The notes under the pieces are model-generated. The model saw only the letters and a list, made by a program, of their open reading frames with translations, had not been told where the DNA came from and did no database searches. From the NCBI RefSeq assembly GCF_041381155.1, contig NC_091137.1, forward strand, positions 13,573,765-13,637,764: DNA of 64,000 nucleotides, read 5' to 3'. The first letter of the stretch is position 1; every line of letters starts with the position of its first letter. The stretch comes from Argopecten irradians (Eukaryota; Mollusca; Bivalvia; Pectinida; Pectinidae). Made by a program: the position numbers and the translations under genes. Of the stretch, positions 9,103 to 54,890 are shown piece by piece.

Positions 9103-10400
9103 CACATGCACTGAATACATGTACATTGTATGGATGCGATATCCCTCAGCAAATACATGCACTGAATACATGTACATTGTATGGATGCGATATCCCTCAG
9201 CAAATACATGCACTGAATACATGTACATTGTATGGATGCGATATCCCTCAGCAAATACATGCACTGAATACATGTACATTGTATGGATGCGATATCCCTC
9301 AGCAAATACATGCACTGAATACATGTACATTGTATGGATGCGATATCCCTCAGCAAATACATGCACTGAATACATGTACATTGTATGGATGCGATATCCC
9401 TCAGCAAATACATGCACTGAATACATGTACATTGTATGGATGCGATATCCCTCAGCAAATACATGCACTGAATACATGTACATTGTATGGATGCGATATC
9501 CCTCAGCAAATACATGCACTGAATACATGTACATTGTATGGATGTGATATCCCTCAGCAAATACATGCACTGAATACATGTACATTGTATGGATGTGAAT
9601 ATCCTCAGCAATATCTCAGCAAATAATGCACTGAATACATGTACATTGTATGGATGTGATATCCCTCAGCAAATACATGCATGAATACATGTACATTGTA
9701 TGGATGTGATATCCCTCAGCAAATACATGCACTGAATACATGTACATTGTATGGATGTGATATCCCTCAGCAAATACATGCACTGAATACATGTACATTG
9801 TATGGATGTGATATCCCTCAGCAAATACATGCACTGAATACATGTACATTGTATGGATGTGATATCCCTCAGCAAATACATGCACTGAATACATGTACAT
9901 TGTATGGATGTGATATCCCTCAGCAAATACATGCACTGAATACATGTACATTGTATGGATGTGATATCCCTCAGCAAATACATGCACTGAATACATGTAC
10001 ATTGTATGGATGTGATATCCCTCACTGAATACGCAAATGATTCCATCAGCATACATGCACTGAATACATGTACATTGTATGGATGTGATATCCCTCAGCA
10101 AATACATGCACTGAATACATGTACATTGTATGGATGTGATATCCCTCAGCAAATACATGCACTGAATACATTGTATGGATGTGATATCCCTCAGCATGCA
10201 CTGAATACATGTACAAATACATGCACTGAATACATGTACATTGTATGGATGTGATATCCCTCAGCAAATACACACTGAACATGTATGCACTGAATACATG
10301 TGATATCCCTCAGCAATGTGATATCCCTCACTAAATACATGCACTGAATACATGTACATTGTATGATGTGATATCCCTCACAAAATACATGCTATACATT
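9103..10400. repeat. 51-bp satellite, left block (about 25 copies)
   Basis: The monomer is 51 bp: TGAATACATGTACATTGTAT followed by GGATGYGATATCCCTCAGCA and AATACATGCAC. Y is C in the first eight units and T afterwards. From about 9600 the copies acquire deletions, and by 10200-10400 the array decays. The unit length is a multiple of three without stops in several frames, so long open frames here are artefacts. Confidence 0.95.
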
Positions 10401-10884
10401 GTAAGATTGTTATGTCGCTGACAACAACGAAAACATCATGTTTTGTAAATATGGTAAAAATTGCGAATGGAATGGAAAGAAAGACTTTCAAAATTGGTAA
10501 AAATTTATCAAGTTAGAGACGAGTGATTGTCTCCCTTTCTAGTGTACACAACAGAAACAGGTAGTATATTTCAAAATTAAATATCACAAAAAGAAGTTCG
10601 AAAACACCATTTTTTTAACATTTTTGAAATCTAGGGCTTGAAAAATGGAAGGAAAAAAAAGACATATAAAAAAAAAATTACATGTTTTTTCCCAAAATTA
10701 TGGCGCTACGTTAAGAGAAAATTGATGAGAACACTGTCTTGATTACTTATTTTCCGCTTAAACATGATTTCAACCTAAGTATAAGGCCAATCATTTTCTA
10801 TTTTTATACTTTTTACTACTCTCTGTTAAGTCCGAAAGTACGAAAATGAGTATCTTTGGGCAGGGGCGTAGCCAGGATTGGCAA
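10401..10884. repeat. Duplicated non-tandem spacer between the two 51-bp blocks
   Basis: A diverged copy of the 8320-8760 flank lies at about 10480-10815, between decayed 51-bp units on the left and fresh units on the right. This suggests that flank and array were duplicated together. No coding potential is seen. Confidence 0.6.
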
Positions 10885-13800: not shown

Positions 13801-14577
13801 TATCCCTCAGCAAATACATGCACTGAATACATGTACATTGTATGGATGTGATATCCCTCAGCAAATACATGCACTGAATACATGTACATTGTATGGATGT
13901 GATATCCCTCAGCAAATACATGCACTGAATACATGTACATTGTATGGATGTGATATCCCTCAGCAAATACATGCACTGAATACATGTACATTGTATGGAT
14001 GTGATATCCCTCAGCAAATACATGCACTGAATACATGTACATTGTATGGATGTGATATCCCTCAGCAAATACACTGAATACTGTACTGTATGATAATGTA
14101 CATGTACATTGTATGGATGTGATATCCCTCAGCAAATACATGCACTGAATACATGTACATTGTATGGATGTGATATCCCTCAGCAAATACATGCACTGAA
14201 TACATGTACATTGTATGGATGTGATATCCCTCAGCAAATACATACACTGAATACATGTACATTGTATGGATGTGATATCCCTCAGCAAATACATGCACTG
14301 AATACATGTACATTGTATGGATGTGATATCCCTCAGCAAATACATACACTGAATACATGTACATTGTATGGATGTGATATCCCTCAGCAAATACATGCAC
14401 TGAATACATGTACATTGTATGGATGTGATATCCCTCAGCAAATACATGCACTGAATACATGTACATTGTATGGATGTGATATCCCTCAGCAAATACATGC
14501 ACTGAATACATGTACATTGTATGGATGTGATATCCCTCAGCAAATACATGCACTGAATACATGTACATTGTATGGAT
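10885..14577. repeat. 51-bp satellite, right block (about 72 copies)
   Basis: The same 51-bp monomer is nearly homogeneous over 3.7 kb. The main variants are GATGCG versus GATGTG, the only CpG in the unit, and CATGCAC versus CATACAC. CG variants occur in runs, for example 11247-11451, 11655-11808 and 13285-13489, separated by triplets of TG units. Irregular units sit at 11042 and 14070-14100. Each unit carries the palindromes TACATGTA and GATATC. Confidence 0.96.
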
Positions 14578-14669
14578 GCTCTTTTTTGTGATGAGAATTT
14601 GAGGAATTTACTAACAGATACAGTGGTATCATATGGGATGTAGAAAAAATCCTAAAACGTCATACTGAT

Positions 14670-19039: not shown

Positions 19040-22000
19040 CAAATTAAGATTGTACGGGAAACCTATTTGGACAAGTTAAAAGAAGTGGACAGGAAAACAA
19101 AAAATGAGACAGATCTAAATGGGTGTACAGGAAACCTACTGTGACAGATCTAGAGGTGTGTACAGGAAACCTGCTATGACAGATCTAGAGGTGTGTACAG
19201 GAAACCTACTGTGACAGATCTAGAGGGTCTGTAAAGGAAACCTACTGTGACAGATCGAGAGGGGTGTACAGGAAACCTACTGTGACAGATCTAGAGGTGT
19301 GTACAGGAAACCTACTGTGACAGATCTAGAGGGGTGTACAGTACAGGAAACCCACTGTGACAGATCTAGAGGGGTGTACAGGAAACCTACTGTGACAGAT
19401 CTAGAGGGGTGTACAGGAAACCTACTGTGACAGATCTAGAGGGGTGTACAGGAAACCTACTGTGACAGATCTAGAGGTGTGTACAGGAAACCTACTGTGA
19501 CAGATCTAGAGGAGTGTACAGGAAACCTACTGTGACAGATCTAGAGGGGTGTACAGGAAACTTACTGTGACAGATCTAGAGGGGTGTACAGGAAACCTAC
19601 TGTGACAGATCTAGAGGGGTGTACAGGAAACTTACTGTGACAGATCTAGAGGTGTGTACAGGAAACCTACTGTGACAGATCTAGAGGGGTGTACAGGAAA
19701 CCTACTGTGACAGATCTAGAGGGGTGTACAGGAAACCTACTGTGACAGATCTAGAGGTGTGTACAGAAAACTTACTGTGACAGATCTAGATGTGTGTACA
19801 GGAAACAGTGAAATCTAGAGGTACTCTTGTGACAGATCTAGAGGGGTGTACAGGAAACTTACTGTGACAGATTTAGAGGGGTGTACAGGAAACTTAATTA
19901 CTGTGACAGATCTAGAGGGTGTACAGGAAACCTACTGTGACAGATCTAGAGGGGTGTACAGGAAAGCTACTGTGACAGATCTAGAGGGGTGTACAGGAAA
20001 CCTACTGTGACAGATCTAGAGGGGTGTACAGGAAACCTACTGTGACAGATCTAGAGGGGGGTGTACAGGAAACCTACTGTGACAGATCTAGAGGGCTGTA
20101 CAGGAAACCTACTGTGACAGATCTAGAGGGTCTGTACAGGAAACCTACTGTGACAGATCTAGAGGGATGTGCAGGAAACCTACTGTGACAGATCTAGAGG
20201 GGTGTACAGGAAACCTACTGTGACAGATCTAGAGGGATGTGCAGGAAACCTACTGTGACAGATCTAGAGGGGTGTACAGGAAACCTACTGTGACAGATCT
20301 AGAGGGGTGTACAGGAAACCTACTGTGACAGATCTAGAGGTGTGTACAGGAAACCTACTGTGACAGATCTAGAGGGGTGTACAGGAAACCTACTGTGACA
20401 GATCTAGAGGGGTGTACAGGAAACCTACTGTGACAGATCTAGAGGGGTGTACAGGAAACCTACTGTGACAGATCTAGAGGTGTGTACAGGAAACCTACTG
20501 TGACAGATCTAGAGGGGTGTACAGGAAACCTACTGTGACAGATCTAGAGGGGTGTACAGGAAACCTACTGTGACAGATCTAGAGGTGTGTACAGGAAACC
20601 TACTGTGACAGATCTAGAGGGTCTGTACAGGAAACCTACTGTGACAGGTCTAGAGGGTCTGTACAGGAAACCTACTGTGACAGATCTAGAGGGATGTGCA
20701 GGAAACCTACTGTGACAGATCTAGAGGTGTGTACAGGAAACCTACTAGGATAGATCTAGAGGGGTGTACAGGAAACCTACTGTGACAGATCTAGAGGGAT
20801 GTACAGGAAACCTACTGTGACAGATCTAGAGGGGTGTACAGGAAACCTACTGTGACAGATCTAGAGGTACATGAAACCAACTGTGACAGATCTAGAGGGG
20901 TGTACAGGAAACCTACTGTGACAGATCTAGAGGTGTGTACAGGAAACCTACTGTGACAGATCTAGAGGGGTGTACAGGAAACCTACTGTGACAGATCTAG
21001 AGGTGTGTACAGGAAACCTACTAGAATAGATCTAGAGGGGTGTACAGGAAACCTACTGTGACAGATCTAGAGGGGTGTACAGGAAACCTACTAGAATAGA
21101 CCTAGAGGGGTGTACAGGAAACCTACTGTGACAGATTTTAGGAGGGATGCACAGGAAAGTAGGAGACCTACTGTGACAGATCTAGAGGGTGTACAGGAAA
21201 CCTACTGTGACAGATCTAGAGGGGTGTACAGGAAACCTACTGTGACAGATCTAGAGGTTGTACAGGAAACTAGGAAGATCTAGAGGGTGTACAGGAAACC
21301 TACTGTGACAGATCTAGAGGGTGTACAGGAAACCTACTGTGACAGATCTAGAGGGGTGTACAGGAAACTTACTGTGACAGATCTAGAGGTGTGTACAGGA
21401 AACCTACTGTGACAGATCTAGAGGGTGTACAGGAAACCTACTGTGACAGATCTAGAGGGTGTACAGGAAACTTACTGTGACAGATCTAGAGGGGTGTACA
21501 GGAAACTTAATTACTGTGACAGATCTAGAGGGTGTACAGGAAACCTACTGTGACAGATCTAGAGGGGTGTACAGGAAACCTACTGTGACAGATCTAGAGG
21601 GGTGTACAGGAAACCTACTGTGACAGATCTAGAGGGGTGTACAGGAAACCTACTGTGACAGATCTAGAGGTGTGTACAGGAAACTTACTGTGACAGATCC
21701 TAGAGGGTGTACAGGAAACCTTCTGTGACAGATCTAGAGGTACAGAAACCACTGTGACAGATCTAGAGGGTGTACAGGAAACTTACTGTGACAGATCGAG
21801 AGGGTGTACAGGAAACCTACTGTGACAGATCTAGAGGGGTGTACAGGAAACCTACTAGTGAAGATCTAGAGGGTGTACAGGAAACCTACTGTGACAGATC
21901 TAGAGGGGTGTACAGGAAACCTTACTAGACAGATTCTAGAGGGGTGTACAGGAAACCTACTGTGACAGATCTAGAGGGGTGTACAGGAAACTTACTGTGA

Positions 22001-23015
22001 CAGATCTAGAGGTGTGTACAGGAAACCTACTAGAATAGATCGAGAGGGTGTACAGGAAACCTATACTACTGTGACAGATCTAGAGCATGTACAGGAAACC
22101 TACTAGAATAGATCTAGAGGGGTGTACAGGAAACCTACTGTGACAGATCTAGAGGGGTGTACAGGAAACCTACTAGAATAGACCTAGAGGGGTGTACAGG
22201 AAACCTACTGTGACAGATTTAGAGGGATGCACAGGAAAGTAGGAGACCTAGAGGAGTGTACAGGAAACCTACTGTGACAGATCTAGAGGGTGTACAGGAA
22301 ACTTACTGTGACAGATCTAGAGGGTGTACAGGAAACCTACTGTGACAGATCTAGAGGGTCTGTACAGGAAACCTACTGTGACAGATCTAGAGGGGTGTAC
22401 AGGAAACCTACTGTGACAGATCTAGAGGGGTGTACAGGAAACCTACTGTGACAGATCTAGAGGTGTGTACAGAAAACTTACTGTGACAGATCTAGATGTG
22501 TGTACAGGAAACCTCTTGTGACAGATCTAGAGGGACGTACAGGAAACTTACTGTGACAGATCTAGAGGGGTGTACAGGAAACTTAATTACTGTGACAGAT
22601 CTAGAGGGTGTACAGGAAACCTACTGTGACAGATCTAGAGGGGTGTACAGGAAATCTACTGTGACAGATCTAGAGGTGTGTACAGGAAACCTACTGTGAC
22701 AGATCTAGAGGTGTGTACAGGAAACCTACCGTGACAGATCTAGAGGGACGTATACGTACAGGAAACCTACTGTGACAGATCTAGAGGGGTGTACAGGAAA
22801 CCTACTGTGACAGATCTAGAGGTGTGTACAGAAAACTTACTGTGACAGATCTAGAGGTGTGTACAGGAAACCTACTGTGACAGACCTAGAGGGACGTACA
22901 GGAAACTCACTGTGACAGATCTAGAGGGATGTAAAGGAAGATCTTGATGGGTGTACAGGAAGATCTAGAGGGGTACCGGTGTACAGGTAACCTACTCACT
23001 GTGACAGTTCTAGAG
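19040..23015. repeat. 35-bp satellite, over 100 copies
   Basis: The monomer is TGTACAGGAAACCTACTGTG followed by ACAGATCTAGAGGGG, with a variable G/T-rich tail of 3-6 nt. Each copy carries the palindromes TGTACA and AGATCT. Edges are degenerate: 19050-19120 drifts to GTACGGGAAACCTATTTGGA, and 22930-23010 is broken. The interior is more uniform. Many single-base indels lie in 21100-22300. Confidence 0.95.
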
Positions 23016-25245: not shown

Positions 25246-28200
25246 ATGTCGGGAAGAGGAGCTCAGAATGGTTCGGACCAGAACTATGAGGAGATATCTA
25301 TGATAGGCAATGGAGCCTATGGAACGGTGTACAAGGCTCGCGACCTGAAAAATGATGGGCAAATTGTGGCGATGAAGCGCATTCGTATCCAAAACACGGA
25401 GGAAGGGATGCCTATGAGTGCCATACGGGAGATAGCACTTCTTAAACAACTTGAAAACTACGAACATCCTAATATTGTCAGGTATATTTCAGCAGCTTTA
25501 AGATAAAAATGTTGTAAGATGACAATTGAATAGTCTCACCTTCTGGTGTTAGTGACATCAGACGGTCTTGCCAAAAGCATGACATCACAAAGAAGCGACT
25601 TTGAGGATTATACACATCAAACATCATTTTCGAAACCCCAATCAACAGAAGCATTTTGACACATTATCAAATTACAAAATGACTGTGAATTGGATTTTAT
25701 AATATATTACTATGCTGATAATTTGAGAAATATTCATGAAAATTCTATTATGCAAAACTGCTTAAAGCAACTATAAAAAATTGTTACAACCCAGAATATT
25801 ACAAATATAGAAATAAACATCTTTAAACTATGAGTCTAATTAGACTGACTAGTATTATGTCCGCATATTATACGTGCTGTACGCTCCGTATACAAGACCA
25901 AATGAAGGTCAATGATGTAATGACCTGGCTGTGACATCATTGTGGTGTGACGGTATTTACAATGATGTGGGGGTGTATTTATTTACATCTCATCATAAAT
26001 GATCCTTGAGTGTTGAGGTACTGCTAGTTATATTGTCAGTAAATAATCAAAATTCAGTATGATCTGTATGGTAAGCACATTTACCGTATTCGACCCAATA
26101 ATCGTTAAGGAAGCTAAGAAAATTTTAAAATAATGGGCCACTTAATAGGACATTTTGACTAGCTACCTTTTATAACATTATTGCTCTAAGTAAGCCATAA
26201 GTCAGTTTGCAAAAGATATCAAATAAAGAAGCAAACATACTTTTTATATTTAATTTGAGATAAGTGAAATTTGAAGGCTTCAAAAAAGGCTATGAGGCGC
26301 TTATATATAGGGTTAAATAAGGTACATATAAAATCAAAGTGAATTAATATGTGGTAGTCCGTTATAGAAAATATAAAGAACATGTACAATGAATCATTTT
26401 AGAGCCCCATCTCACCCTGAGTCCTACATAAAGTGAGGTTATAATTTACAATTGTAATGCACTATGTAGTTTGAATGAATCAACTTAACTTTAAGGAATT
26501 ACTTAACTTCTGTAATAGTTTTCCTGTGGAGAATTTTAAATTTAAGGAATTCTTTTTAAGGAGTGTTTGTGAAATTGGGCCCTCACTCTAAGAGACAGAT
26601 TTACCCAAAGTCCTCATATGAGGGAACATTTTCCTATGGAGAATTTTAAGTTTAAGGAATGAACGGAATGATTTTCTATAGGCATTTCAGAGGAGCAATA
26701 CTACTTCCCACAAATAGATACAGTACACATTTGTACTTTGCAATTGTCCTGATTTTGATCTTTGAATTTTAACATCAAGGTTACAGTATTGTTTTAATCA
26801 TTCTCACAGAACATGATACCGTTAAACAACAACATTAGAGTGCCAGAAAATTGAAGGACAATCCTTGATGGAAATAAAGATATTTCAAGTGTCGAAAGGT
26901 TATTGAACGTTTTATCCCACCCCAGACAGTCTGGTGTAGACACAATCTCTCAGGAGTGTTTAAAATTCAAAACCACCAGTGACTTTTTAATAGCTTTTGT
27001 AAACATTTAACACCAGATCCAAGGCTAAAACTCTTGTGTATAATTATCATTCATTTACATATCAAAGTATGTTCCGTCTGTATTCTGTACATGTGTGTAT
27101 TATTGTAAATCATAAAGCTGGTTTAATCTTTAATCCCTCACCTGGTCGGCTAATTTCTTATGTAAAACACTTAATAGGACTTAATATAATATCATTTCAT
27201 TCACAAGTTTTAAAATTTAATTGGTAGGTTAAAGTCTGTGACAAGCTTATAGTATACTATGATTGTAATACACGAAAGGTCAGGAGAGATAATCCCTTAG
27301 TTACGAGTTTGTTTACCTGTTGCTAGGTTGACAGGTGGGCTAGTATAGTATATTGATTACAACACATACCCAAACAGGTGATCAGGCCTACCACATGGTA
27401 CTAGACTGTCTGTTACCCAAGGTTTTTAAATTTAAATTGAATAAATAATTTAATTCATTTCAAAATTTTAAATTATTAAAAGTTCAATAGAAAAGAAAGA
27501 GATGAAAATAGAATGTTGTTAGTCTTTAGCTCTTGGTGGCTTAAAATTTAGATTTCCCATGTAAATGATGGCAATCTAGATGTGTACAATCAATTGATTG
27601 ATTTCAGTTTAACACAGGGTCAAAATGTCGACGTCTGCGTCACTGGAATCGTAGAACGTTGCCTGTTGGCTTGGCAGAAGAATGTCAGTTATGTGGTTAT
27701 TGTATAGTGCCTTCACATTCTGATAGTGTATTCTGAATATCTACCTGACATTCTGATCTGTATACAAGAAAATGGTATGAATAAAATTCCAATTTACATG
27801 TACCAAAGGACTTGGGTAGATATAAATATCTATACATTTAAATGTCTATCTGAACGTCTATTTATATCACACACGGTGCACTGTTACCGGGGGAGTTTAA
27901 ATACCCCAAGTTTATCAATATTAAATTCAATGTAGTGTTTTTGATTCAGTACTAAAACTCTATATATAGTTTGAAGTATATACTATATACAAGTTGTACC
28001 AGTATGGAAATGGGTTCTTCAGATTTGTAAATACCAATGTAGGTGTATACTAATTGTGCCATACCTAACACGTTGATTTTAATTTGATTACATTTTTACA
28101 TTGTTGTGTCTTTTGTTCATTGAAGGTTCATTTGGGAATTCAAATTCAACAAGTTAAATACTGAATCACTTTGCAACAGGAATCCATTGTCAATTTGAAA

Positions 28201-31200
28201 ATAAATTCAAATCCAAATTACTGTATTTATATTTATGTCCAGGGCGACTGGGCCTACTCTGTAGTGCATTGAACCAGGGGCCAATACATGACCCCATACC
28301 TTTTTGGAAATGGTCATGACATATTTTTCCAAATTGATTGGTAAATTTCCCAATTAATACTTCAGATTTATATTTTCTGTGAATAGATATAGAATCATTT
28401 AACATGACAGAGATATAATATATGCATCATACCAATGATTTCCATTGATAAATATATAATGGAATCACTGCATGTTGACAAGACTCCCAATTTCACTATT
28501 ACTATGACTTGAATTCCGTATTTAAAAGAAGGCCACGGGCAATTTACTTTCTAACTAGAGGATAGTCCCTGTCCATTGTTAATGATAATAAACTTTTGTC
28601 ACTTACATCTGAATGCAGATGCCAGTAAAATAATTCTGCTGACTTTAATTTGTATGTAAATGCTGTAAACAGTTTTCTTTATTGACTACAAAAACAAAAT
28701 TTCATGAATTTCATTTTAAAACCAGTTTATCGAGATTGAATTTAAATATGAGCATAAATGATCATTGGTGTTACACCAAAAATGTTGATTAATAAACATT
28801 AATTCAAGCAATGACATTTTGGGTTATCTCAATCTGTTTAATGAGGACTCCTTTGAACCATTGTCATTTGAAAATAAATCTAAAACCGTACAAAATATGT
28901 ATTTGGTATATATATACAACTACAATGTATATCCTTTTCTAACAGATTATTGGATGTTCGGCATTCCCAAGCCACTGCAAATGAGATCCGACTCATGTTG
29001 GTGTTTGAATACATTGACCAGGATCTATCAACCTATTTAGAGGGCTGCCCATCTCCAGGACTAGGACCAGATCGGATCAAGGTAAGACAACTCTTGTCCA
29101 GATCACTATACTTACAATATACATAATGTATGACTTTTTACAGAATAATGTTTCTGTAGATTTACCTGGCCAATAATGCTGAATTGTTGTTTCTTTAAAG
29201 TATCTGTCTTCCAAAGATAAAACTATCAAATCATTTTGTAATATTTTTGGATATTTTCATTGAAGTTTAAGATAAATCATTTATTTATTAGTTTTATTTT
29301 AAGTGAGATTGTATCCCCTTTAACATCACCGTATATTTTTATACCAAAATTACAATACTGAATACACAATCAAATATCTTCATGTTTGTTACATTGGTAA
29401 AAATATACCTTATACATAAATATAAAAAAGATGTATTTCTGAAAAAAAGTCTGTAACAATGCATTATACATTCGTATATAACTTAAGGCCATGCAAAATT
29501 GTTTCAAAACGTCAATTTTTTTTATCAATAGGTATATAATTGTCATAATTGCAGACTCCTTGTTACCATAAAGTAATTAATCTAATTAACAGGACCTGAT
29601 GTACCAACTGTTGAACGGCGTTGACTTTCTGCATGCGCATAGAATCGTACACCGCGACCTCAAACCACAGAATATCTTAGTGACCGGACAAGGTCAGCTC
29701 AAACTTGCCGATTTCGGACTGGCACGAGTGTACGGATTCCAGATGGCGTTAACATCAGTGGTAATTTCATTTGAAGAATACATGTTTTCACACACGCCAT
29801 GAAATGTTGGATTTTTTCATCATTTGATGATAAAAATATTCTCAGGGAAGAACTATTTATTGCTTAAAGTAATTAATTTTATTGAGAAAATATTTTCAGT
29901 CAGATTCAGTACAGATATGTATGGTAACCGTGTGCATACTGATACAATAGAAATAAACAAAAAGGTAATTTTCAAAAGGCATGAATGGATCTCATACATT
30001 TGATGAAAAAAACTGACAATGATATAATATGTCTTACTGAAACACATCTTGACCCGTTAGTTCCGGACTCTGACCTTGTTTTAGACAGTTTTAGTAGTTT
30101 TCATCGAAGGGATAGGCAGGTAGGATTTGGTGGTGGCATTATTATATGTACAAGAGATACTGTGATTTGTAAGCGACGAAGAGATTTGGAGTCTAACAAT
30201 ATTGAAATTATTTGGTTAGAAGTTTTAGTAGATAGCCATAAGTTCTTACTAGGGTGTATATATAGACCAGAATCTAATGTAGAATACTGGCGAAAATTAG
30301 ATGACATGTTTAATATTGTTTTTGATGATAATAATAATGATGTAGTTATAACTGGTGATATAAATGTTGATATGTCAAACCTTCAGCCACACTCTCATCT
30401 AGGCCGATTACTTACAAAACATAATCTAAACAGTTTTATTAAAGAACCCACTCGCATTACTCCTACTTCTTCTTCTTCTATTGACATTGTTCTATCTAAC
30501 AACAATCACCTTATAAGGGATACAAATGTTCTTGCTCCGATTTGCAGTGACCATTGTCTTATTAACTTCTGTATATCATATTCAGTATATAGACAAACTG
30601 CATATAAGAAAACGATATATGAATATGATGGTGCTGATATTGATAGGATTAATGATAATATTAGTAATATTGACTGGATATCTATCTCACAAAATAATGA
30701 TGTAAACGAATTTAATAATATTCTAGTTGAAACAATTAACACACAAATAAATGACCATGTACCACAAAAAATAGTTACAGTGCGACCGAATGATAAGCCT
30801 TGGTTTACAAACACAATTAGATTAAAAATTAGACAGAGGAACCGCATTCACAAAAAAGCTATTAATTCAAACTCCCCTACTCAATGGGAAAGGTACAGAT
30901 TAGTTAGAAATGAAACTATTAACCTAATTAGAGAAACAAAACAAAATTATTTCATGAAACTTGAATCATCGTTAAATAATATTAGCTTGTCTCCAGATAA
31001 ATGGTGGAAAATTGCTAAATCTTTGTTAAAAATTGATAATAAGCAAACGTCTATCCCCCCTCTAAAACACAATGAGTCTTTTCTCCAACATCCTTTTGAA
31101 AAAGCGGAACACCTAAATACATACTTCTCTTCAATCTCCACTTCTTCTAATGATCTTGATCCTCTTCCCCCTCCTCCCGAGTTTCCTTTTAAGATTGACA

Positions 31201-34200
31201 ATATTGTATTTACTGAACAGGATATCAAAGATCAGCTTTCTAATCTTAATGAAAAGAAACCTGCAGGACCTGATGGTATTGTCCCAAAATTCATAAAACT
31301 ATTGACACCCTCTATTTCTATTCCTCTTACCCTTCTCTGCAATAAAACTATGGAAACCGGTTGTATTCCCTTGCCATGGAAAGCTGCTAACATTAATGCC
31401 ATACAGTATACAAAGGGAAAGGTGATGTAAATGATATTTCCAACTATCGACCCATTTCTATCACCTCTTGCTTCAGTAAAATAATAGAAAAAGTAATTTT
31501 TAAGTATCTCTATAATTACCTACGTGACTGTGAAGTAATCACCAAACATCAGTCCGGCTTCATTCCCGGTGATTCAACTGTGAACCAACTTCTTTCGATA
31601 TACAATAATATCACTAACTCATTAGACAAAGGAAAAGAAGTCCGGTCTGTTTTCTGTGATATAAGTAAAGCCTTTGATAGAGTGTGGCATGATGGACTAT
31701 TATTTAAATTAGAATCTTATGGTTTTAAAGGGAAATTATTAGGGTGGTTTAGAAATTATCTTACTGATAGGAAGCAACGTGTTTTAACTGAAGGCATTTT
31801 CTCTACATTTAAAACTGTTAACGCTGGAGTCCCCCAGGGATCTGTCTTAGGCCCTTTTTTATTTCTATTATATATTAACGACATAACTAATATTGTTACT
31901 AGTGATTGCAATTTGTTTGCAGATGACACTTCGATTAGTGAAGTAATTGATAATAACCAAATCTATGCTGCCCATACACTTTCACAAAATCTTTCGAATA
32001 TAAGTACCTGGGCTCTGAAATGGGACATAAAGTTTAACCCCACTAAAACTGAATCATTAATATTTTCAAGGAAACGAAACGTCATTCATCCCGATATATA
32101 CTTTGACAATAACACGGTTCATACAGCTAGCACACATAGACATTTAGGAGTTCTACTTTCTGACGACTGTAAATGGACTCACCACATAGATTGTGTATAC
32201 CAGAAAGCATTTAAAAGGATAAATATTTAAAAACATTAAAAAAAAGAGTGTCACGTAAAACTCTTTTAAACATTTATAAAAGTTATATTTTACCTATTTT
32301 AGAATATGCTGATGTTTTATGGGATAACTGTACTGAACAATGTAAACTTCTGTTAGAGTCTGTCCACTTAGAAGCCGCTAGGATTATAACGGGATTGCGC
32401 AGAGGTACCTCCCATGATATACTTTATAAAGAACTAGCTTGGGAATCTCTTTCTGATCGGCGTCAAAAACACAAACTTATTCTTATGTTTAAGATACTCC
32501 GTGGATTTGCTCCACAGCATTTGATTGAAATTGTACAACCATTTTTATATCAGCCTGAAAATGAGAGATATCCACTAAGGATGACAAGATATTTTAATAT
32601 TCCTATGTGCAGAACTGCAAGTTACTATACTAGTTTTTTTCCAAGTACCTTTAGAGAATTTAATTCTTTCGCTTTAAACTTTTACTTATCGAATGTTAAT
32701 ACTGTTGCACAATTTAAAACACTCCTTTTTAACATTAATAAAATGGAACCTGATATAACAAATACCTTTATAAACAAAGGTTCTCGAATTATAAATATTA
32801 CTCTGTGCCAGCTCAGAAATTCCTCTAGCAATCTAAATTCTGACCTATTTCGCGATCATTTGAGAGATTCTCCAATTGTTTCTTGTGGCCTTGGTAATGA
32901 AACAGCTGAACACTATCTTTTCATATGTCCTTTATTTAATGAACAAAGATCATCACTCAGAACCAAAATACATAACTCTAATATCCCCCACTCGCATTTT
33001 AACGCAAAAACTCTACTGCATGGCTGTGACAAATTGTGATGAAGAAAAAAATACATATTTATTGCAATGCATATCAGAATATATATCTGAAACTAAAAGA
33101 TTTTTTTTAGATTTTTCTACTATGATAGGTTGGGGAGATACACTAATAATAATATTCATTCATAATGTAATGTTAAATGTTAAAATATTTTGTTGATAAT
33201 TGTACTATACCGGATTTGTTTGGAGATGGCTAATATAGGCTTTGCCTGTTGCCAAATCCATTTGCATATTATTTGCAATAAAATTTGTTGAAATATAATG
33301 AAAAAAACCCATTGTCAATAACACTAGTTAGGTGGCTGTTACATATTGATTACATAAAGTTAACCGGATCAGCAAAATGTTGGAATTTTCAAAATGTTGG
33401 AATCTTCCAGGATAATGATAATTTGATCAAAGCAAAAAAGTTTGGGCCTCTGCATATCAAAATAGACTGTAAGACTACAATTATCATCCTATTTTCAGGT
33501 GGATACGATGTGTTATCAACCTGAGTGAGTGATGTAACCATCATATGCTTTTGAAATAAGTGTTTATTGCTGATAAAAGCGATTGACATCGATTTGATGA
33601 ATACAAAATGTACTTTTAAAAAATGTATTGGCCAATAAACAACAGCCTAAACGACAGTCATATAATACTTATGAATATCTTCCTGTTTTATTGCTTATGA
33701 TGTTTTGGTTTAAGAACCTTTTGAATCTCTTAATGACAATTATACATGTTTGACCTGTAAATGTATCCCTATTTTGTAGGTGGTGACTCTGTGGTACAGT
33801 GACAATACTATATACTGTGTACATATGACACGTTACTTTCTCCCTATTTTGTAGGTGGTGACTCTGTGGTACAGTGACAATACTATATACTGTGTACATA
33901 TGACACGTTACTTTCTCCCTATTTTGTAGGTGGTGACTCTATGGTACAGTGACAATACTATATAAGTATTTTATTTGTAGTACAGTGACAATACTATATA
34001 TGTGTACATATGACACGTTACTTTCTCCCTATTTTGTAGGTGGTGACTCTATGGTACAGTGACAATACTATATATAGTGTACATATGACACGTTACTTTC
34101 TCCCTATTTTGTAGGTAGTGACTCTATGGTACAGTGACAATACTATATACCTGTGTACATATGACACGTTACTTTCTCCCTATTTTGTAGGTGGTGACTC

Positions 34201-37200
34201 TATGGTACAGTGACAATACTATATACTGTGTACATATGACACGTTACTTTCTCCCTATTTTGTAGGTGGTGACTCTATGGTACAGTGACAATACTATATA
34301 CTGTGTACATATGACACGTTACTTTCTCCCTATTTTGTAGGTGGTGACTCTATGGTACAGTGACAATACTATATACTGTGTACATATGACACGTTACTTT
34401 CTCCCTATTTTGTAGGTGGTGACTCTATGGTACAGTGACAATACTATATACTGTGTACATATGACTCATTACATGCTCCCTATTTTGTAGGTGGTGACTC
34501 TGTGGTACAGTGACAATACTATATACCGTGTACATATGACACGTTACATTCTCCCTATTTTGTAGGTGGTGACTCTATGGTACAGTGACAATACTATATA
34601 CTGTGTACATATGACACGTTACTTTCTCCCTATTTTGTAGGTGGTGACTCTATGGTACAGTGACAATACTATATACAGTGTACATATGACACGTTACTTT
34701 CTCCCTATTTTGTAGGTGGTGACTCTATGGTACAGTGACAATACTATATACTGTGTACATATGACACGTTACTTTCTCCCTATTTTGTAGGTAGTGACTC
34801 TATGGTACAGTGACAATACTATATACTGTGTACATATGACACGTTACTTTCTCCCTATTTTGTAGGTGGTGACTCTATGGTACAGTGACAATACTATATA
34901 CTGTGTACATATGACACGTTACATTCTCCCTATTTTGTAGGTGGTGACTCTATGGTACAGTGACAATACTATATACTGTGTACATATGACACGTTACTTT
35001 CTCCCTATTTTGTAGGTAGTGACTCTATGGTACAGTGACAATACTATATACTGTGTACATATGACACGTTACTTTCTCCCTATTTTGTAGGTAGTGACTC
35101 TATGGTACAGTGACAATACTATATACTGTGTACATATGACACGTTACTTTCTCCCTATTTTGTAGGTGGTGACTCTATGGTACAGTGACAATACTATATA
35201 CTGTGTACATATGACACGTTACTTTCTCCCTATTTTGTAGGTTGACTCTATGGTACAGTGACAATACTATATACGTGTACATATGACACGTTACTTTCTC
35301 CCTATTTTGTAGTAGTACAGTGACAGTGACTATATATAGTGTACATATGACACGTTACTTTTCTCCCTATTTTGTAGTGGTGACTCTATGGTACAGTGAC
35401 AATACTATATACTGTGTACATATGACACGTTACTTTCTCCCTATTTTGTAGGTGGTGACTCTATGGTACAGTGACAATACTATATACATGTGTACATATG
35501 ACACGTTACTTTCTCCCTATTTTGTAGGTGGTGACTCTATGGTACAGTGACAATACTATATACTGTGTACATATGACACGTTACTTTCTCCCTATTTTGT
35601 AGGTAGTGACTCTATGGTACAGTGACAATACTATATACTGTGTACATATGACACGTTAACTTTCTCCCTATTTTGTAGGTAGTGACTCTATGGTACAGTG
35701 ACAATACTATAATACTGTGTACATATGACACGTTACTTTCTCCCTAATTTTGTAGGTGGTGACTCTATGGTACAGTGACAATACTATATACTGTGTACAT
35801 ATGACACGTTACTTTCTCCCTATTTTGTAGGTAGTGACTCTATGGTACAGTGACAATACTAATATACAGTGTACATATGACACGTTACTTTCTCCCTATT
35901 TTGTAGGTGGTGACTCTATGGTACAGTGACAATACTATACTGTGTACATATGACACGTTAATTTCTCCCTATTTTGTAGGTGGTGACTCTATGGTACAGT
36001 GACAATACTATATACTGTGTACATATGACACGTTACTTTTCTCCCTATTTTGTAGGTGGTGACTCTATGGTACAGTGACAATACTGAATACTGTGTACAT
36101 AATGACACGTTATTTCTCCCTATGTTTTGTAGGTGAGCAATTAAACTTACATAAACATATTGACTCTATGGTACAGTGACATGACATACTAGATATACTG
36201 TGTACATATGACACGTTACTTTCTCCCTATTTTGTAGGTGTAGTGGACTCTATGGTACAGTGACAATACTATATACTGTGTACATATGACACGTTACTTT
36301 CTCCCTATATTTTGTAGGTGGTGACTCTATGATACAGTGACAATACTGAATTACCTGTGTACATATGACACGTTACATTCTCCCTATTTTGTAGGTGGTG
36401 ACTCTATGGTACAGTGTGCCTTTTCAGAAACAGTCTAGGAGAAGAATTGTGTGAACAAAAAGAAGTAATTTTCAACTGTGGAAGCTTAATATTGTAATGA
36501 TTTTCAATCCGAAAATAATTACTATCATCATCTTCAAATTCCTTATTGTGAATTTAACTGTAATATGATTTAAGCATATACCTGATATTTGTTTATATTC
36601 TATGTGTACATGCTTGAAATGAAATGAATAAATAAAAGATTATTTAAATTTAAAACACAATATGACATTAGCTGTTTATATTTTTGTCAGTGTAACATAT
36701 TAAGCTTATCGTTCATAACACACTAATCATCACCTTCGAGACAATTTAATGAAAATCAATTAAACATTATTTGTATAACACAGGTCGTCTTATGTTTTTA
36801 CCCCGCCTTGACTATCAATGTTCCCTGATCACTCTGAAAGTATTGATTTTACCTTTTTTTTCGTCACCACATGAACTGCCTTTAAATCAAATCACACCAA
36901 TGAGACATACATGTACTGCATTCATTATAACACTGTATGCAATTCTGCAAGATCAGCGAACATTGTTGATTACCTTGAATATCTACAGCACAGTATGGTA
37001 CCATATGTAACAGGAGAGGAGAAAATGTAGCGGTAAAGACCGGGATTCGATCCCGGGACTCTCCGAACACTAGCTGAGTGCTCTACCGACTGAACTACAC
37101 TGGTCATCGATAATCGACCCAGTACCAGTCCCGCTACACTCCTCCCCCTTTTTTGAATACATACGAGACCCTTTCAAACACCACAAACCGTTGGTTATTT

Positions 37201-40200
37201 AGTTGGTGCCAATTCTGTAACAGGAGAAGAAGAAAATGTAGCTCTTCCGACTGAGCTTACCTGATCACCGATAATCTACCCAGTCTGATCCCGCTACAAA
37301 CAATTTATCTGGTTAATTTTATCTCCCTTCCTATTTTCAATCTACCTTTATGACTTAGAATCTTACCTGGTGGAAAAGAATATTTTGTCTTACAAATCTT
37401 GACAAATTATGCACACTGCGATTGTTGCAAGCTAAACTACGTTTATCCGCTAGCTGATTGCTTGTTGATTGTTTAATGATCTCAAACACACTAATTTCTT
37501 ATTGTGCCAATTTAAGTAAATAATATTCTACTCTTTTCAAATATATCTCAAAAACATTGGCATGTGCACGGAGTACGGCGGACCAGACCGCCGATGTTTT
37601 GGACATCTGCTAGATATTTCAGTTTCAGGTTACGGTGGCCAATAAAAGAAAACAAACACAATGCGGGTTTTTCATATGTTATTTCTTCTAAATACAACAC
37701 TTTTTGTGCAGTTGTCAAGCATTTATGGGGGAATATTTTTGCATTGAAATTTTCACCTTCATACATCGGTTTTGGGAATCCCTGGACATTGTTTTTCCCC
37801 CATTTTGTTGATGCGCAAAATATACTGATAGTAGATTTTTAAGCATTTTCAGCCCTAAAAATTACCTGCGCAAAATTATACCAGTTTTTACGGGTATATG
37901 ATATTGGAATGTATCCCAAACTGTTTATCATATTTTTGCCAATAACACTGTTATGATATCAGAAATATCTGATGGTCTACAACAAGTGTTACATGAATTT
38001 TAACAATATTGCATAACATGGAAATCAGAACTTAATATCAGAAAGATAAAAATTGTGATATTCTCAAGACGTAAATCGGTACAACAACACCAGTTGATGT
38101 TAAGGAATACAGAATTATATTTATAAGAATTGTTTACATATCTAGGTACAGAAAATAATGTTAATGGTAGCGTTTTTAAAGAAAGGGAAAAAACCTGCTT
38201 AACAAACCAATTAAATCGGCGTTTGCTGTCTATAATATAAATGACCTTAGGTTTTGTCGATGGGCCGTAAAACTCAAACAATCAAATGTTTTATAAGAAA
38301 TAAAGGAATGTATCTCTTCCTGTTCATCTTAAACTGAAAATATTTGATTCACTTGTATTGACAGTTTTATTATACTCATCAGAGGTATGGGGATTTGAAA
38401 ATAAAAAATGTTGTAGAAAAATTCATATTGTAATTTTGTAAAACGATCCTGAAGTTAAGAAAGTGTACAAACAATATCATGGTCTATGGTGAGCTAACAA
38501 GTTATCCGTTATGAATTGAATGTGCGGATACAATGTATATCAAACAACTTGCCGTTTTAACAAAAGAACGAATTGACAAGAACTTTTTAAAAGTAATACA
38601 ACTTCATCCAGAGACATAGATATTTCTATATTATTAACGAACATTTTGGCATAGATAAAAAATATGCCCTAGACCTTTTTCTCTGACTGCAAAACCAATA
38701 GCTTGTTATATGTGATCCTGTGGGTCCCCAGGAACATGCAAAAGGTGTTATAAAATAATTTGACATAAAACAACAAAGGAAATAAATATAATGGTGGCTA
38801 CCAAGATTATAGTATGTGTCCTCTTATTATTACAAACCTTGGGTGTCCTAGGGAATCCTCCAAAGTCCAAACAGGAAGGAACACGCAGCCCAAATTTCAT
38901 TTCTTATTGTACAAAACTACAGTAGTATTGACCTTAGAAATATATTCCTCCTAATATCGAGACCGAGCCATTTAGTAAAATTAGTTTAGATTTTTTTAAA
39001 TTTAGAACCCATGAGCTCACACTACCCATTCGCATTTTCGTTAATAACGAATCGATCTGGCTAATTGCTCAAATAAATTCATCCTAATTTGCAGATAATG
39101 CTCAAGTTTTCCTTCACACACGATATCCAATCATGCGGACACCAGCTTCAAACATAGGTTTTTTTCAGTCGCATTACATTCATAGCAAGTATAAAACAGC
39201 TGATAAATTAATCAGTTGCTGTACCATATATGTTTTAATGTTGAAGGGATGTTAAGTAACAATACGCACGACGGAGAATGGTTTAATGAATGATCAGAAT
39301 CTTTTGTATGTGTGTACTTTTCACTTGATGCATAAACTACTTTATTTGATGCTTCTTAGTAATTTAATGTTTTTCAGTATGGAATGCTGTGAATGCACAA
39401 TTTGCTAAATGAAATTCTTATTTGCGAGAAAAAAATCGCTTTTGCAACTTTTGCTAAGCAAACTCGAAAGTTAGTGTGAGCCCAGGAACCGACAGAAATT
39501 TTTTCAAATACATGTAAGCATATCGTTGCTTGCTTTTGGAAAATGGCAATTGATGTCCTCATATAGATATTGACACTCTTTAGGCTGTGTATAAATGCTT
39601 CCAAATTTTGCAATAAGTTTAATAAGTTTATGGCACAGCTATTATTTAAAAGATATTTTAAAGATACAAAAATTTTATGTTCACTTCATGATCTACACCA
39701 GTTACTTCCCTTTAATTGAAACTGTTTTCTGTGAGCCAAAGATCATCCCTGATACTCCAGTGGTTACTGTCACTGTTGTTATATCCACCCATGGACTATG
39801 TCACAATAGAACTGGAGGCAACATAACTCACAGATAATTTCAGCTGAATTTGTTCCTTTGATGTACATGAAAAGAATTGAATAACGTACAATGTACACTG
39901 GTTTACTGCTTGGCTTTGAAGTTGGACGTCACTCCCTCTGTAGTCTTCAAAGGATTAAGTCTCTACAGGCCTCTGATTGATTAGTTTTTTTCTCCTGAAC
40001 TGCAGCCTTCTGAAGTTTTACATGAGATAGTCCAGTGGTGGCTCTAACAACAGTGATAGTAATCCCTGGAGTATCGAGAATGCCCACAAAAATGTATATG
40101 ATCAATGTACATGAAAATTAATCTCATAATGTTTATATTTTCAGACCATTGTTTTGTGGAGATTCAGATATCAATCAGCTGTCAAAAATATTTGAGTAAG

Positions 40201-41111
40201 TAAATCAAACATAAGACCACTTGACTACTGGTAATTGTAACATATAGTGGTAAGTTCCATTACCACAAAGTATGATCCAAGCTTGATTTCCAAGTTCATA
40301 ATGTATAACTTATTTCTGAAATATCCCAACCCGTTTTCATATATTAAAATTCCTTTAAATCATATCTATATAAGGCTTATAATAAGCATGCTAAAACACT
40401 GTATATGAAAAGAAATCAATTCTATCTACAGTGTTTACTTTTACTATGTATAGGGTGCTTGGCCTACCATCCAAAGAGGATTGGCCGGAAAGTGTGACGT
40501 TACCATGGAACTCATTCAAACCTCTGGCCCCTAAGTCTCTGGAACAACTCATCCCAGAGATTGATCCTGATGGAAAAGATCTTCTGGAGGTTAGTGTCTA
40601 AAGCTACCAGGATCTGTTCCAGTGTAGATACTGATGGCATTGTTTGGGTGATAGTAATCTAGGTACTGTGGAACCTGTTATTTTTGTGTGCAATTAATAG
40701 CAAATTTCACGGAGAATTGGACATTTTGAAACTTCATAATCCCAAAATTGATTCCTACAAAGATTTATAGAATGACTACAATTATAATTTATCAATGTCA
40801 GATATTTAATTGTTGTGAAAATATTGTAAGACTTGAAAACTTCAAATTTTGTTGCCAGAAACAAGTTTATTAACTTCAAAATTTTTAAGAAAATTATTAT
40901 TATTCATCTTGTTTCATTCTAAGATGTGTCATTTTGTTTTCAGAAATTAATTCAGTTTAATCCACATAGCCGACTAAGTGCTCGGTCGGCACTACAACAC
41001 AGTTATTTCCGTGACGATTTAGATAGTTTACGGACTTCAAGTTCACTGTCAGTGTCAGAGAGCGATTCATGTGATAATGACGGAAGGTCGGACACACCGG
41101 TCAGTAAGTAA
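25246..41111 (+). CDS. Cyclin-dependent kinase, CDK4/6 family (exon 4 damaged or missing)
   Basis: Coding exons are 25246-25481, 28946-29081, 29593-29760, 40145-40195, 40454-40589 and 40944-41111 (stop TAA). All are GT-AG and phase-consistent. Seen in order: glycine loop [12 protein letters not shown] lysine in VAMKRIRI, cyclin-binding helix PMSAIRE (PSTAIRE equivalent), [13 protein letters not shown] hinge, catalytic [13 protein letters not shown], and GFQMALTSV, a CDK4/6 hallmark. After these come [33 protein letters not shown] and [18 protein letters not shown], then a serine-rich tail ending DTPVSK. In this family the enzyme pairs with cyclin D and phosphorylates retinoblastoma proteins at G1/S. 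The segment VVTLWYRAPEVLL...CIFAELFRRK should join exon 3 (phase 0) to 40145 (which needs a 3n+2 exon). Only VVTLWY is present, inside the 75-bp array. The start is chosen as the first in-frame ATG, just before the kinase fold. Confidence 0.93.
25482..28945 (+). other. CDK intron 1 (coding)
   Basis: 3.46 kb, AT-rich. A direct repeat of TTTTCCTRTGGAGAATTTTA occurs at about 26520 and 26630, inside a GTGAAATTGGGCCC-type repeat common in molluscs. No other element is recognised. Confidence 0.6.
29950..33296 (+). mobile_element. Non-LTR retrotransposon (CR1/L2/Jockey type) in the CDK intron, frameshifted
   Basis: Frame 29985-31430 has an AP-endonuclease domain ([31 protein letters not shown]) and the start of the reverse transcriptase ([17 protein letters not shown]). 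After a frameshift near 31400 the RT continues ([50 protein letters not shown], catalytic FADDTS). Another shift near 32225 leads to the C-terminal region (32248-33039, [18 protein letters not shown], later [18 protein letters not shown]). A third near 33035 leads to a tail ending at 33196. The start of the endonuclease is missing, so the copy is 5'-truncated. The 3' end is GCAATAAAATTTGTTGAAAT. It is probably dead, although single-base shifts could in part be assembly errors. Confidence 0.9.
33297..33761 (+). other. CDK intron sequence between LINE and exon-derived array
   Basis: Unique AT-rich intron sequence. It contains a perfect short direct repeat AAAATGTTGGAAT (33375-33402). No exon for the missing APE region is found. 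Confidence 0.6.
33762..36414 (+). repeat. 75-bp satellite built from the 3' splice site and first 20 nt of CDK exon 4
   Basis: Each unit holds ACTTTCTCCCTATTTTGTAG (polypyrimidine tract plus AG) followed by GTGGTGACTCTATGGTACAG, which reads VVTLWY in the frame that follows exon 3. A 35-bp filler, TGACAATACTATATACTGTG TACATATGACACGTT, completes it. The first exon-like copy is 33780-33799 and the last is 36395-36414, about 35 in all. A few copies have the synonymous CTG instead of CTA. In no copy does TACAG continue into RAPE: the filler reads S and ends at the TAG of the next acceptor. After the last copy the sequence is unrelated (TGTGCCTTTTCAG). Copies after about 35230 have many small indels. 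VVTLWY is the conserved CDK stretch expected here, so the array almost certainly derives from this gene's own exon. Confidence 0.9.
36415..37005 (+). other. CDK intron after the array
   Basis: No continuation of exon 4 and no repeat is recognised. The remainder of the kinase exon was searched for here by its APEVLL and DMWS signatures without success. Confidence 0.55.
37006..37298 (-). mobile_element. Family-B tRNA-like miniature LTR element, minus strand
   Basis: On the minus strand the element reads LTR (37298-37216, 83 bp, with a deletion removing the B box), interior (37215-37139, 77 bp), LTR (37138-37006, 133 bp). The interior starts GAATTGGCACCAACTAAATA, the counterpart of the primer-binding site in the 5.7-kb copy. 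It ends with the polypurine tract AAAAAAGGGGGAGGAG directly before TGTAGCGGG. The intact LTR has an A box (GTTCAGTCGGTAGAGCAC) and a perfect T-arm stem (CCGGG ATCGAAT CCCGG). It ends TGTTACA. No clear target duplication. Confidence 0.75.
37299..37959 (+). other. CDK intron
   Basis: An open frame at 37564-37842 has no family resemblance. A small GC hairpin CGGCGG...CCGCCG lies near 37574. Nothing else is recognised. Confidence 0.4.
37960..38780 (+). mobile_element. Relic of a non-LTR reverse transcriptase
   Basis: Broken plus-strand reading frames give fragments typical of the end of LINE reverse transcriptases: [18 protein letters not shown], then [18 protein letters not shown], then LNKPIKSAF. 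These have the order K-x-K-hydrophobic-FSR then YLG found downstream of FADD. Many stops and shifts show an old copy. Limits are approximate. Confidence 0.6.
38781..39739 (+). other. CDK intron
   Basis: No exon or element is recognised. Confidence 0.4.
39740..40085. mobile_element. Foldback (MITE-like) element next to CDK exon at 40145
   Basis: The left arm GATACTCCAGTGGTTACTGT (from about 39748) is repeated inverted at the right, where the minus strand reads GATACTCCAGGGATTACTAT (from about 40077). The similarity continues through CACTGTTGTT and TGGACTAT, about 55 bp per arm. The spacer is about 220 bp and noncoding. It ends only about 60 bp before the exon acceptor. Confidence 0.6.
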
Positions 41112-41790
41112 GGAATCATGTGGTTTATAGGTCACATGATTCTAAATCAGGGTCATGGAACCAATAAGAGTCATGGCGATTGTGATTATACATAATGTCA
41201 CAATTATGAATCATGATCATTAATTTGGAGTCATGTGATCATTAATGAGGAATCATGTGATCATGTAAAAGGAGTCACATGATCATTAAAACGGGAGTCA
41301 CATGATCATGAATAAGGAGTAATATAATTTAGCCATGTGATAATATATGGTACAGAATGACATGATTAAACAATTTGTGTGGTTATGTATCAGGTGTATC
41401 ACAACTGATGTGATTAATGTTGACCCTATTTGGGCACTTAATATATCAATTGAAGTGGTCATTATCATCAACGAAGAATCATGTTATCGATGATAATCAA
41501 CTTAAATGAATGATCGGCACCTCAATAAGCCAGCTGATTCAGGATCAGATTTTCGAGTGCAGCAGTAGCAGATTTTAAGTTCAACTCAACTTCTAAAATG
41601 ATTATTTGGATGTGAGTGGAAATTAATAGAAAAGCATTTTTTAATGTAACTTGGTATCCTGAATTGAAGTTAAGATTTCAAAGATGGTTAAAGGATGTTC
41701 TTTACAGAAAATAATTATAGAGTTAAGGAAATGATTAAAGTGCTTGACAAAAGCCATTTCAGTCAATATGAAGAAGTAACATACAGAAAC
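41112..41790 (+). repeat. CDK 3' flank with TCACATGATCAT tandem motifs
   Basis: Directly after the stop, 41112-41330 contains about eight diverged copies of a 22-27-bp unit with AATCATGTGATCATTAATGA or its near inverse GAGTCACATGATCATTAA. The motif is self-complementary (CATGATCATG-like), so the RNA could fold. It is likely part of the 3' UTR. The rest up to 41790 is unremarkable. Confidence 0.6.
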
Positions 41791-53000: not shown

Positions 53001-53829
53001 GAATGATCGGCTGCTTTGTCCCAGTCGGACGCTAAGGTGTTCCCTTGATAAAACAAAAAGATTTTTTAAAGGGAAAAAAAGCTGAAAATTTCATTGTTTT
53101 CCCGTCATTTCACAAAAATGAGAAGACGTAACGTCATTATTATGATTTAATCGTAATCAGCATGATTCAATCATATTTAAAAATGTGTTTATTTGCCTCT
53201 GTGTGTTGTCTGGTTCGGTATCTAATCGCGTATATACGAATGTGTCATTTTGGCCATTTTTTGATTTTTTTATGGGGGGAGGGGTCCCTCACTTCATTGA
53301 TGCGATCTATCTTTTTATAGTACACTTATATTTCCACAAGGGTTGGTTCTATTCGAAATGACTGTAACAAGGTGATTTGTCCATCAATTTTTTTTACTTG
53401 TGATAAAAATTATGACATTTATCTATTTTTTAGGGAAAAAAGCTGAAAATTTCGTTGTTTTTCCGTCATTTCATAAAAATGACAAGACATAACGTTATTA
53501 TTATGATTTAATCGTATTCAGCATGTTTCAATCATATCAAAAATGTGTTTATTTGCCTCTGAATGTTGTCTGGTTCTCTATCTATGCGCATATATGCGAA
53601 TGTGTCATTTTGGCCATTTTTGATACCTGAAATCCAAGATGGCCGCCATATGACCCCCATGGGACATTAGTTGTCAATGGCAACAAGCATAAAATGAAAC
53701 TAAACATCATACCGGTCCTAAAAAACCATGTTTCGAAAAACTGCCAGAGGGGTACATGGGAACCTATTTCTCCTCCCCCACTACATGTCATGGCGCGGCG
53801 TCCGTCGTCCGTCCGTCGGTCCGTCAACA

Positions 53830-54890
53830 TTTCCTTTGAATCGCTACTGGTCATAGAGTTCTGCATGGATTGTAACCAAAATTGTCTAACTTGTATAAAT
53901 TTTGGCTCCGCCCCCGGGGGCAGGAGGGTCGGGGCCCAATAGGGAAAATATAGGTAAATCCTATAAATCGCTACTTGTCCTAGAGTTCTGCATGGATTGT
54001 AACTAAATTTGGCCACAAACAGCCTTGGGTAAGGGGAACAGAACTTGTATAGATTTTGGCTCTGACTCCCTGGGGGCAGGGCCCAATAGGTGAAATAGAG
54101 GTAAATCCTATAAATCGCTACTTGTCCTAGAGTTCTGCATGGATTGTAACCAAATTTGGCCACAAACATCCTTGGGGGAAGGGGAACAGAACTTGTATAA
54201 ATTTTGGCTCTGACTCCCCGGGGCAGGAGGGGCGTGGCCCAATAGGGGAAATAGAGGTAAATCCTATAAATCGCTACTTGTCCTAGAGTTCTGCATGGAT
54301 TGTAACCAAATTTGGCCACAAACATCCTTGGGGGAAGGGGAACACAACTTGTATAAATTTTGGCTCTGACCCCCCGGGGGCAGGAGGGGCGGGGCCCAAT
54401 AGGGGAAATAGAGGTAAATCCTATAAATCGCTACTTGTCCTAGAGTTCTGCATGGATTGTAACCAAATTTGGCCACAAATATCCTTGGGGGAAGGGGAAC
54501 AGATTTTGTATAAATTTTGGCTCTGACTCCCCGGGGGCTGGAGGGGCGGGGCCCAATAGGTGAAATAGAGGTAAATCCTATAAATCGCTACTTGTCCTAG
54601 AGTTCTGCATGGATTGTAACCAAATTTGGCCACAGACATCCTTGGGTGAAGGGGAACACAACTTGTATAAATTGTGGCTCTGACTCCCTGGTGGCAGGAG
54701 GGGCGGGGCCAAATAGGGGAAATAGAGATTAATCCTATAAATCGATACTTTCTAAGAGTTCTGCATGGATTGTGACCAAATTTGGCCACAATCATCACTG
54801 ATGGAAGGGGAACAGAACTTGTATAAATTTTGTCTCTGACCCCTACGGGCCCTTTGGGGCAGGAGCCAGGGCGGGGCCAAATAGGGGAAT
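53830..54890. repeat. 157-bp tandem repeat, about 7 copies
   Basis: Units contain TCGCTACTTGTCCTAGAGTT, CTGCATGGATTGTAACCAAA, TTTGGCCACAAACATCCTTG, ACTTGTATAAATTTTGGCTC and GCAGGAGGGGCGGGGCCCAA. The first and last copies are more diverged. Open frames on the minus strand are by-products of the repeat. Confidence 0.93.

Follow-up and report, generated by a model that had tools for sequence, protein, structure and literature searches.

Some 35 tandem copies of an intron–exon boundary inside a CDK4/6 gene of a bivalve-like genome

The window analyzed here is a stretch of 64,000 nucleotides (C4:13573765-13637764 of the genome assembly) that contains a CDK4/6 gene and, inside it, a tandem array of 75-bp units that cross an intron–exon boundary. 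Six exons of the gene were located, all on the + strand, and all internal exon borders in the gene are AG/GT. Exon 1 (25246..25481) runs from the start codon to the donor CAG/GTATAT, and its translation matches CDK6 and, exactly, the public protein P0001; exon 2 (28946..29081) is 100% identical to P0001 in a tblastn comparison and has AG...GT borders; and exon 3 (29593..29760) ends with ...MALTSV/GTAATT in phase 0. Exon 5 (40145..40195; 51 nt, with an acceptor in phase 2), exon 6 (40454..40589) and exon 7 with the stop codon (40944..41111) were placed with P0001 as a guide. P0001 has 334 residues, is 100% identical to exons 1–3 and agrees with exons 1–3 and 5–7 at all 297 of the 297 residues compared; in it, exon 4 is represented by 36 residues. 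Its marker, lgn, presumably denotes the Logan assemblies of public reads; the longest contig in its cluster is 2005 bases whereas the genomic exons span about 16 kb, so P0001 is most likely derived from spliced RNA, a processed copy also being conceivable. The six located exons total 895 of 1005 nt and therefore exon 4 must be 110 nt long, or 36 codons plus two bases of the next, with the array repeating its first 20 nt and 90 nt remaining.

A query of exons 1–3 followed by the array-encoded VVTLWY scores 260–265 bits against CDK6 chains, 222–235 bits against CDK4 and at most 173.5 bits against CDK2, among the best 60 of 2669 matches. These similarities support the identification of the gene as CDK4/6, to which it is nearest among the CDKs, and together with P0001 and the position of the array between exons 3 and 5 they bear out an earlier note on this DNA, which had proposed both this identity and the exon-4 position. 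The best-scoring named relatives are molluscan (Pinctada, 84%; Haliotis, 81%; Mytilus, 86%); one relative labelled as sturgeon (67%) is marked UNVERIFIED_CONTAM by its source, and an unnamed protein, P0002, is 98% identical over exons 1–3. With P0001 as the query and 120 of 224 candidates scored, exons nearly identical to those of CDK4/6 are found at only one locus in the assembly.

The array lies in the orientation of its own gene, between exons 3 and 5, at 33766..36416 (2651 bp, + strand), and is made up of about 35 units. Each unit corresponds to 55 nt of the end of intron 3, comprising a polypyrimidine tract and TTTTGTAG, and 20 nt of exon 4, encoding VVTLWY plus AG; it thus crosses the boundary in the correct phase and agrees with P0001. 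The satellite of about 35 copies described in the earlier note is confirmed by 35 exact copies of the acceptor end TTTTGTAG within the array, with one more elsewhere in the window. The statement that every unit carries both parts proved too strong: the exon-4 start GTGGTGACTCTATGGTACAG is present 33 times when up to three mismatches are allowed (20 exact, 11 with one mismatch and two with three; mean 0.00 and largest 0 in 100 shuffles), but the full CTTTCTCCCTATTTTGTAG occurs 24 times and the full 39-mer of acceptor and exon start only 13 times. The left end of the array begins within a unit, at TCCCTATTTTGTAG, and the right end reads ...GTACAGTG; the last copy of the exon-4 start is at 36395..36414 on the + strand, and the bases that follow it are not the remainder of exon 4.

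The units are not uniform. When cut at the acceptor, nine of 34 share the commonest sequence, two carry long insertions of 35 and 30 letters, and a third lacks 12 nt. Adjacent units are no more similar than distant ones and the local duplication history is therefore unreadable. The unit with 30 extra bases (36133..36237, + strand) has TAG followed by a donor-like GTGAGC in place of the exon start, with six of nine matches to the U1 consensus; at 36133-36160 this TAG is followed by GTGAGCAATTAAACTTACATAAACATA, which is unlike the other units and may be either a leftover piece of intron 4 or an error of the consensus. Elsewhere in the window, neither strand has any 14-mer of the unit consensus, and a 150-base unit query against the whole genome (845,758,899 bases in 1508 contigs), in a search that skips very common words, gave 19 matches, all within the array, which is the only locus found. 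A comparison with viral and prokaryote contigs gave 0 matches, which is uninformative for an animal sequence. Two overlapping AATAAA motifs are present at 36627-36636, about 0.2 kb past the array, so that a terminal exon beginning at the last acceptor is conceivable.

When exon 3 is joined to the array acceptors, VVTLWY comes first at 29 of the 35 and a stop follows within 32 residues at all 35, and P0001 continues precisely where the reading of exon 3 with VVTLWY plus AG enters exon 4. The earlier claims that the units encode VVTLWY in the phase left by exon 3, and that each opened frame ends at a stop, are therefore correct. If exon 4 is skipped, exon 5 is read in a shifted frame after exon 3, and translation ends after 16 residues. 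Each unit has two AGs, the intron-end TAG and the AG of TACAG 20 nt downstream. The array acceptor has 14 pyrimidines among the 16 positions from -20 to -5, compared with 8–12 in the gene's five other acceptors, and the unit's TAG/GTGGTG has four of nine matches to the U1 consensus (five of nine in the GTAGTG form), compared with six or seven of nine for the gene's five donors. In recursive splicing, a ratchet site consists of an acceptor AG that directly abuts a strong 5′ splice site; the weaker U1 match of the unit GT makes such splicing unlikely here. A search for proteins with array-derived tails gave three candidates, none with E<=10, and is a weak negative because P0001 was itself not listed despite the shared SVVVTLWY; clustering of proteins at 90% identity can moreover hide short isoforms. 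The suggestion in the earlier note that the array forces skipping or yields truncated kinase is thus neither supported nor refuted, P0001 being full length and the tail search having returned nothing at that threshold.

The remainder of exon 4 comprises 90 nt, which encode the APE motif and the residues that follow. In the window, tblastn at word size 2 did not find it among the best 40 matches, nor did ungapped scoring of both strands from exon 3 to exon 5, where the best score is 14, against 9–22 in five shuffles and a self-score of 163. Degenerate nucleotide alignment to the sequence after the array gave a score of 23.9, compared with a median of 21.9 and a 95% value of 34.8 for 115 background stretches, and 130 for exon 3 as a positive control. 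A remnant of the exon's 3′ end was not found just past the array either, 150 of 283 background stretches being equally good. These tblastn, ungapped and degenerate alignments rule out a remainder hidden in the window. In the whole assembly, the 36-residue exon-4 query gave only matches of 34–65% identity (38 of 38 candidates scored), the top places of which overlap kinase matches found with P0001, and P0001 itself has no match of more than 61% identity away from the locus among the 120 listed (120 of 224 candidates scored). No second gene copy or relocated exon is seen among L001-L020, for which the best identity is 67% and the matches are to other kinases. In the sequence open to these searches, where some stretches read as N, no displaced exon 4 turned up and none lies on another contig; the assembly has one CDK4/6 gene, and most of one of its exons is absent. 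Intact exon 4 is known here only at the level of protein. The proposal of the earlier note that a segment was amplified in place is accordingly upheld only in part: the unit is indeed the end of intron 3 plus 20 nt of exon 4, at the position of exon 4, but simple amplification in place is unsupported because the last unit stops short of the rest of the exon, and that rest was not found in the assembly.

We think it reasonably likely that the array is a boundary-spanning minisatellite (a "mirage") in CDK4/6, and that in the animal exon 4 is present at or within the array but was lost in the assembly. In this interpretation, tandem amplification of 55 nt of the end of intron 3 together with 20 nt of exon 4 would have produced about 35 copies or more, and the working acceptor would most likely be the one copy that is still attached to the other 90 nt of exon 4 and, through them, to the donor of that exon. 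In exon definition an internal acceptor is paired with a downstream donor, and the attached copy would win because it is the sole copy that defines the complete 110-nt exon. For the upstream copies, the best donor on offer would be a weak GT, and splicing to any one of the 35 would run into a stop within 32 codons; transcripts that used them would probably be degraded because of that early stop. Given exon definition and the poor donor of the unit, the simplest outcome is that the extra units are left unused by splicing. The 90-nt remainder would then be absent because the array was collapsed or mis-joined on its right side during assembly.

The distribution of differences among the units is consistent with an assembly problem on that side. 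Units with indels make up 13 of the 15 in the right part of the array, which faces the gap (35241..36394, + strand), but only two of the 19 to the left (Fisher p 1.2e-5), whereas substitutions are evenly spread (12 in the 15 right units and 17 in the 19 left units, p 0.79); both kinds of change should increase if the edge of an array decays naturally. Across three long arrays of the window there are 202 substitutions and 141 indel events, against 119 and 8 in two short ones, in a comparison that left out two bins of the 51-bp array with a non-repeat insert, a short 41-bp array and three other arrays. The indel pattern of the long arrays looks like that of an unpolished long-read consensus. Public data include the intact protein, and the nearest published parallel, BflGb6 of amphioxus, was likewise assembled aberrantly in a draft genome (PMC3087553).

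That assembly caused the loss of the exon is something we infer, and a number of observations weigh against it. Both ends of the array fall on the same 35–36-nt core and join neither a complete unit nor the exon, and the left flank has no significant remnant of a unit; when it is aligned as a diverged full unit, 560 of 1000 shuffles and 193 of 368 background stretches score at least as high. Array ends of this kind and a left flank without a recognizable unit are explained no less well by a real rearrangement. The division into left and right parts was chosen after the units had been viewed, and cheap alignment gaps favor indels over substitutions in badly disrupted units. Wraparound alignment also assigns ten indel events to the 300 bases with which the array opens, where they surround a partial unit of 35 bases, and 59 of the 106 indel letters recur between units, so random error does not account for all of the indels. 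Edge decay is moreover a feature of natural arrays, and the source of P0001 may be another individual or a sibling species.

An alternative explanation, possible but rather doubtful in our view, is that the final 90 nt of exon 4 are truly absent from the sequenced haplotype through rearrangement or recombination of the array; this haplotype would then be a null allele, while the other haplotype and the individuals that gave P0001 would carry an intact one. The failure to find the remainder in the window or the whole assembly and the abruptness of both array edges are consistent with this. Homozygous loss in an essential gene is expected to be lethal and an intact haplotype should therefore exist, yet none is present in the assembly; the flanking exons are undamaged, and indel-bearing units increase toward the gap while substitutions do not. 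Massive gene presence-absence variation has been reported in a mussel (PMC7653742) and would favor a null allele. A bolder version, which we consider unlikely, is that the assembly is correct and that a splice-site satellite consumed the rest of an essential kinase exon. A haplotype with incomplete CDK4/6 would then exist in the population, sustained by an intact partner, and the array would pose an active risk of mutation, the exon being formed and destroyed in it by unequal exchange.

It is very improbable that the array is a copy of the boundary that was moved to its present place, with the true exon 4 at another locus or in a processed copy: neither array end continues into the expected flank, which speaks for such a copy, but the array lies between exons 3 and 5 in the orientation of the gene, and the limits of 65% identity for the exon-4 query genome-wide and 61% for P0001 away from the locus among the 120 matches listed mostly refute it. 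We are similarly skeptical that the array provides an alternative end to the gene, giving a short CDK4/6 in which 180 residues are followed by 24 more (or, from the last unit, by 19) and which would have a regulatory or decoy role. The frames and stops are as the earlier note said and AATAAA is present at 36627 and 36631, but neither tail was found in a protein among the three candidates of the weak search described above, in which isoforms could have been merged into the 90% cluster of P0001. That an unrelated satellite resembles the exon start by chance is scarcely credible, and no point in its favor was found: the chance of a fixed six-codon match in a random 75-mer, in any phase and on either strand, is about 2e-6 before position, strand and phase are considered, and the units also lie in the right gene, position, strand and phase behind an acceptor.

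The window is rich in other repeats. Intron 3 contains a fragment of a non-LTR retrotransposon between exon 3 and the array (29985..33039, + strand), with endonuclease and then reverse transcriptase frames; two of its three open reading frames (ORFs) match PF03372 and PF00078 and the third has no match, the ORFs overlap in different frames, and the named relatives include scallop (Mizuhopecten) proteins at 49–55% identity. A 51-bp tandem array of about 5.5 kb (9104-14578) has a non-repeat break at about 10390-10885 with indel-rich units immediately to its left, and a 35-bp array of about 3.8 kb (19108-22939) has substitutions and indels throughout. Further arrays at 56536, 59232 and 63213 make the window rich in minisatellites, and a 22-bp tandem repeat (41214-41320) begins about 100 bases past the CDK4/6 stop codon. 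A G+C-rich repeat of about 157 bp recurs about six times at 53888-54840, with minus-strand open frames; the frame at 53582-54430 has no Pfam match.

The array suggests that boundary-spanning minisatellites, known from amphioxus and, in the form of one duplication, from potato, are present in a bivalve-like genome as well, here with about 35 copies inside a core cell-cycle gene. The locus is a natural setting in which to test how the spliceosome chooses one among dozens of near-identical acceptors. If the exon was indeed lost in assembly, such arrays can cost assemblies an exon and make an essential gene appear broken.

The closest known systems are the amphioxus mirages, tandem minisatellites that duplicate an intron–exon boundary in the globin genes BflGb6 and BflGb9 and in Adh3 (PMC3087553). 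At BflGb6 the units are 150–160 bp, with six and three on two haplotypes and the authentic exon attached; reverse transcription PCR (RT-PCR) suggested that splicing is undisturbed, and the site was "aberrantly assembled" in the amphioxus draft genome, while the Adh3 units are 10–72 bp (PMC3087553). As at BflGb6, the CDK4/6 unit joins the 3′ end of an intron to the 5′ part of an exon inside the source gene; unlike BflGb6, the unit is 75 bp, there are about 35 copies, the genome is bivalve-like, and the remainder of the authentic exon was not found in the assembly. We take an authentic exon beside the repeats to be a usual mirage trait and not part of the definition.

Two further systems offer partial parallels. 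A report that cites the troponin C repeats adds PGBD5 as a further case of boundary repeats (PMC3902484): in the lancelet gene, 60- and 108-bp repeats in few, imperfect copies abut or overlap splice sites, two versions of the genome sequence disagree on their copy numbers (2 vs 7 and 3 vs 6), and re-examined sequencing data backed the assembled sequence (PMC3902484). The CDK4/6 repeats likewise overlap a splice site but are present in many copies. In a potato RdRp gene, a single tandem duplication across a 3′ splice site became a used intron (PMC4974935). There too the duplicated segment spans an intron–exon boundary, and each extra CDK4/6 unit begins with GT and ends with AG, but the unit's GT matches a donor weakly and no new intron is in evidence. 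A literature search of narrow reach found no molluscan boundary-spanning repeat, and PMC4732748, considered as a molluscan case, is unrelated. The CDK4/6 array has the features that define a mirage, in that its unit spans the boundary and it lies inside its own gene, and it stands apart in copy number from the cases for which numbers are given, and also in lineage and in the missing remainder of the exon. The earlier note had called this satellite unusual; the arrangement itself has been published in amphioxus, but the copy number at CDK4/6 is above that of the cases for which numbers are given.

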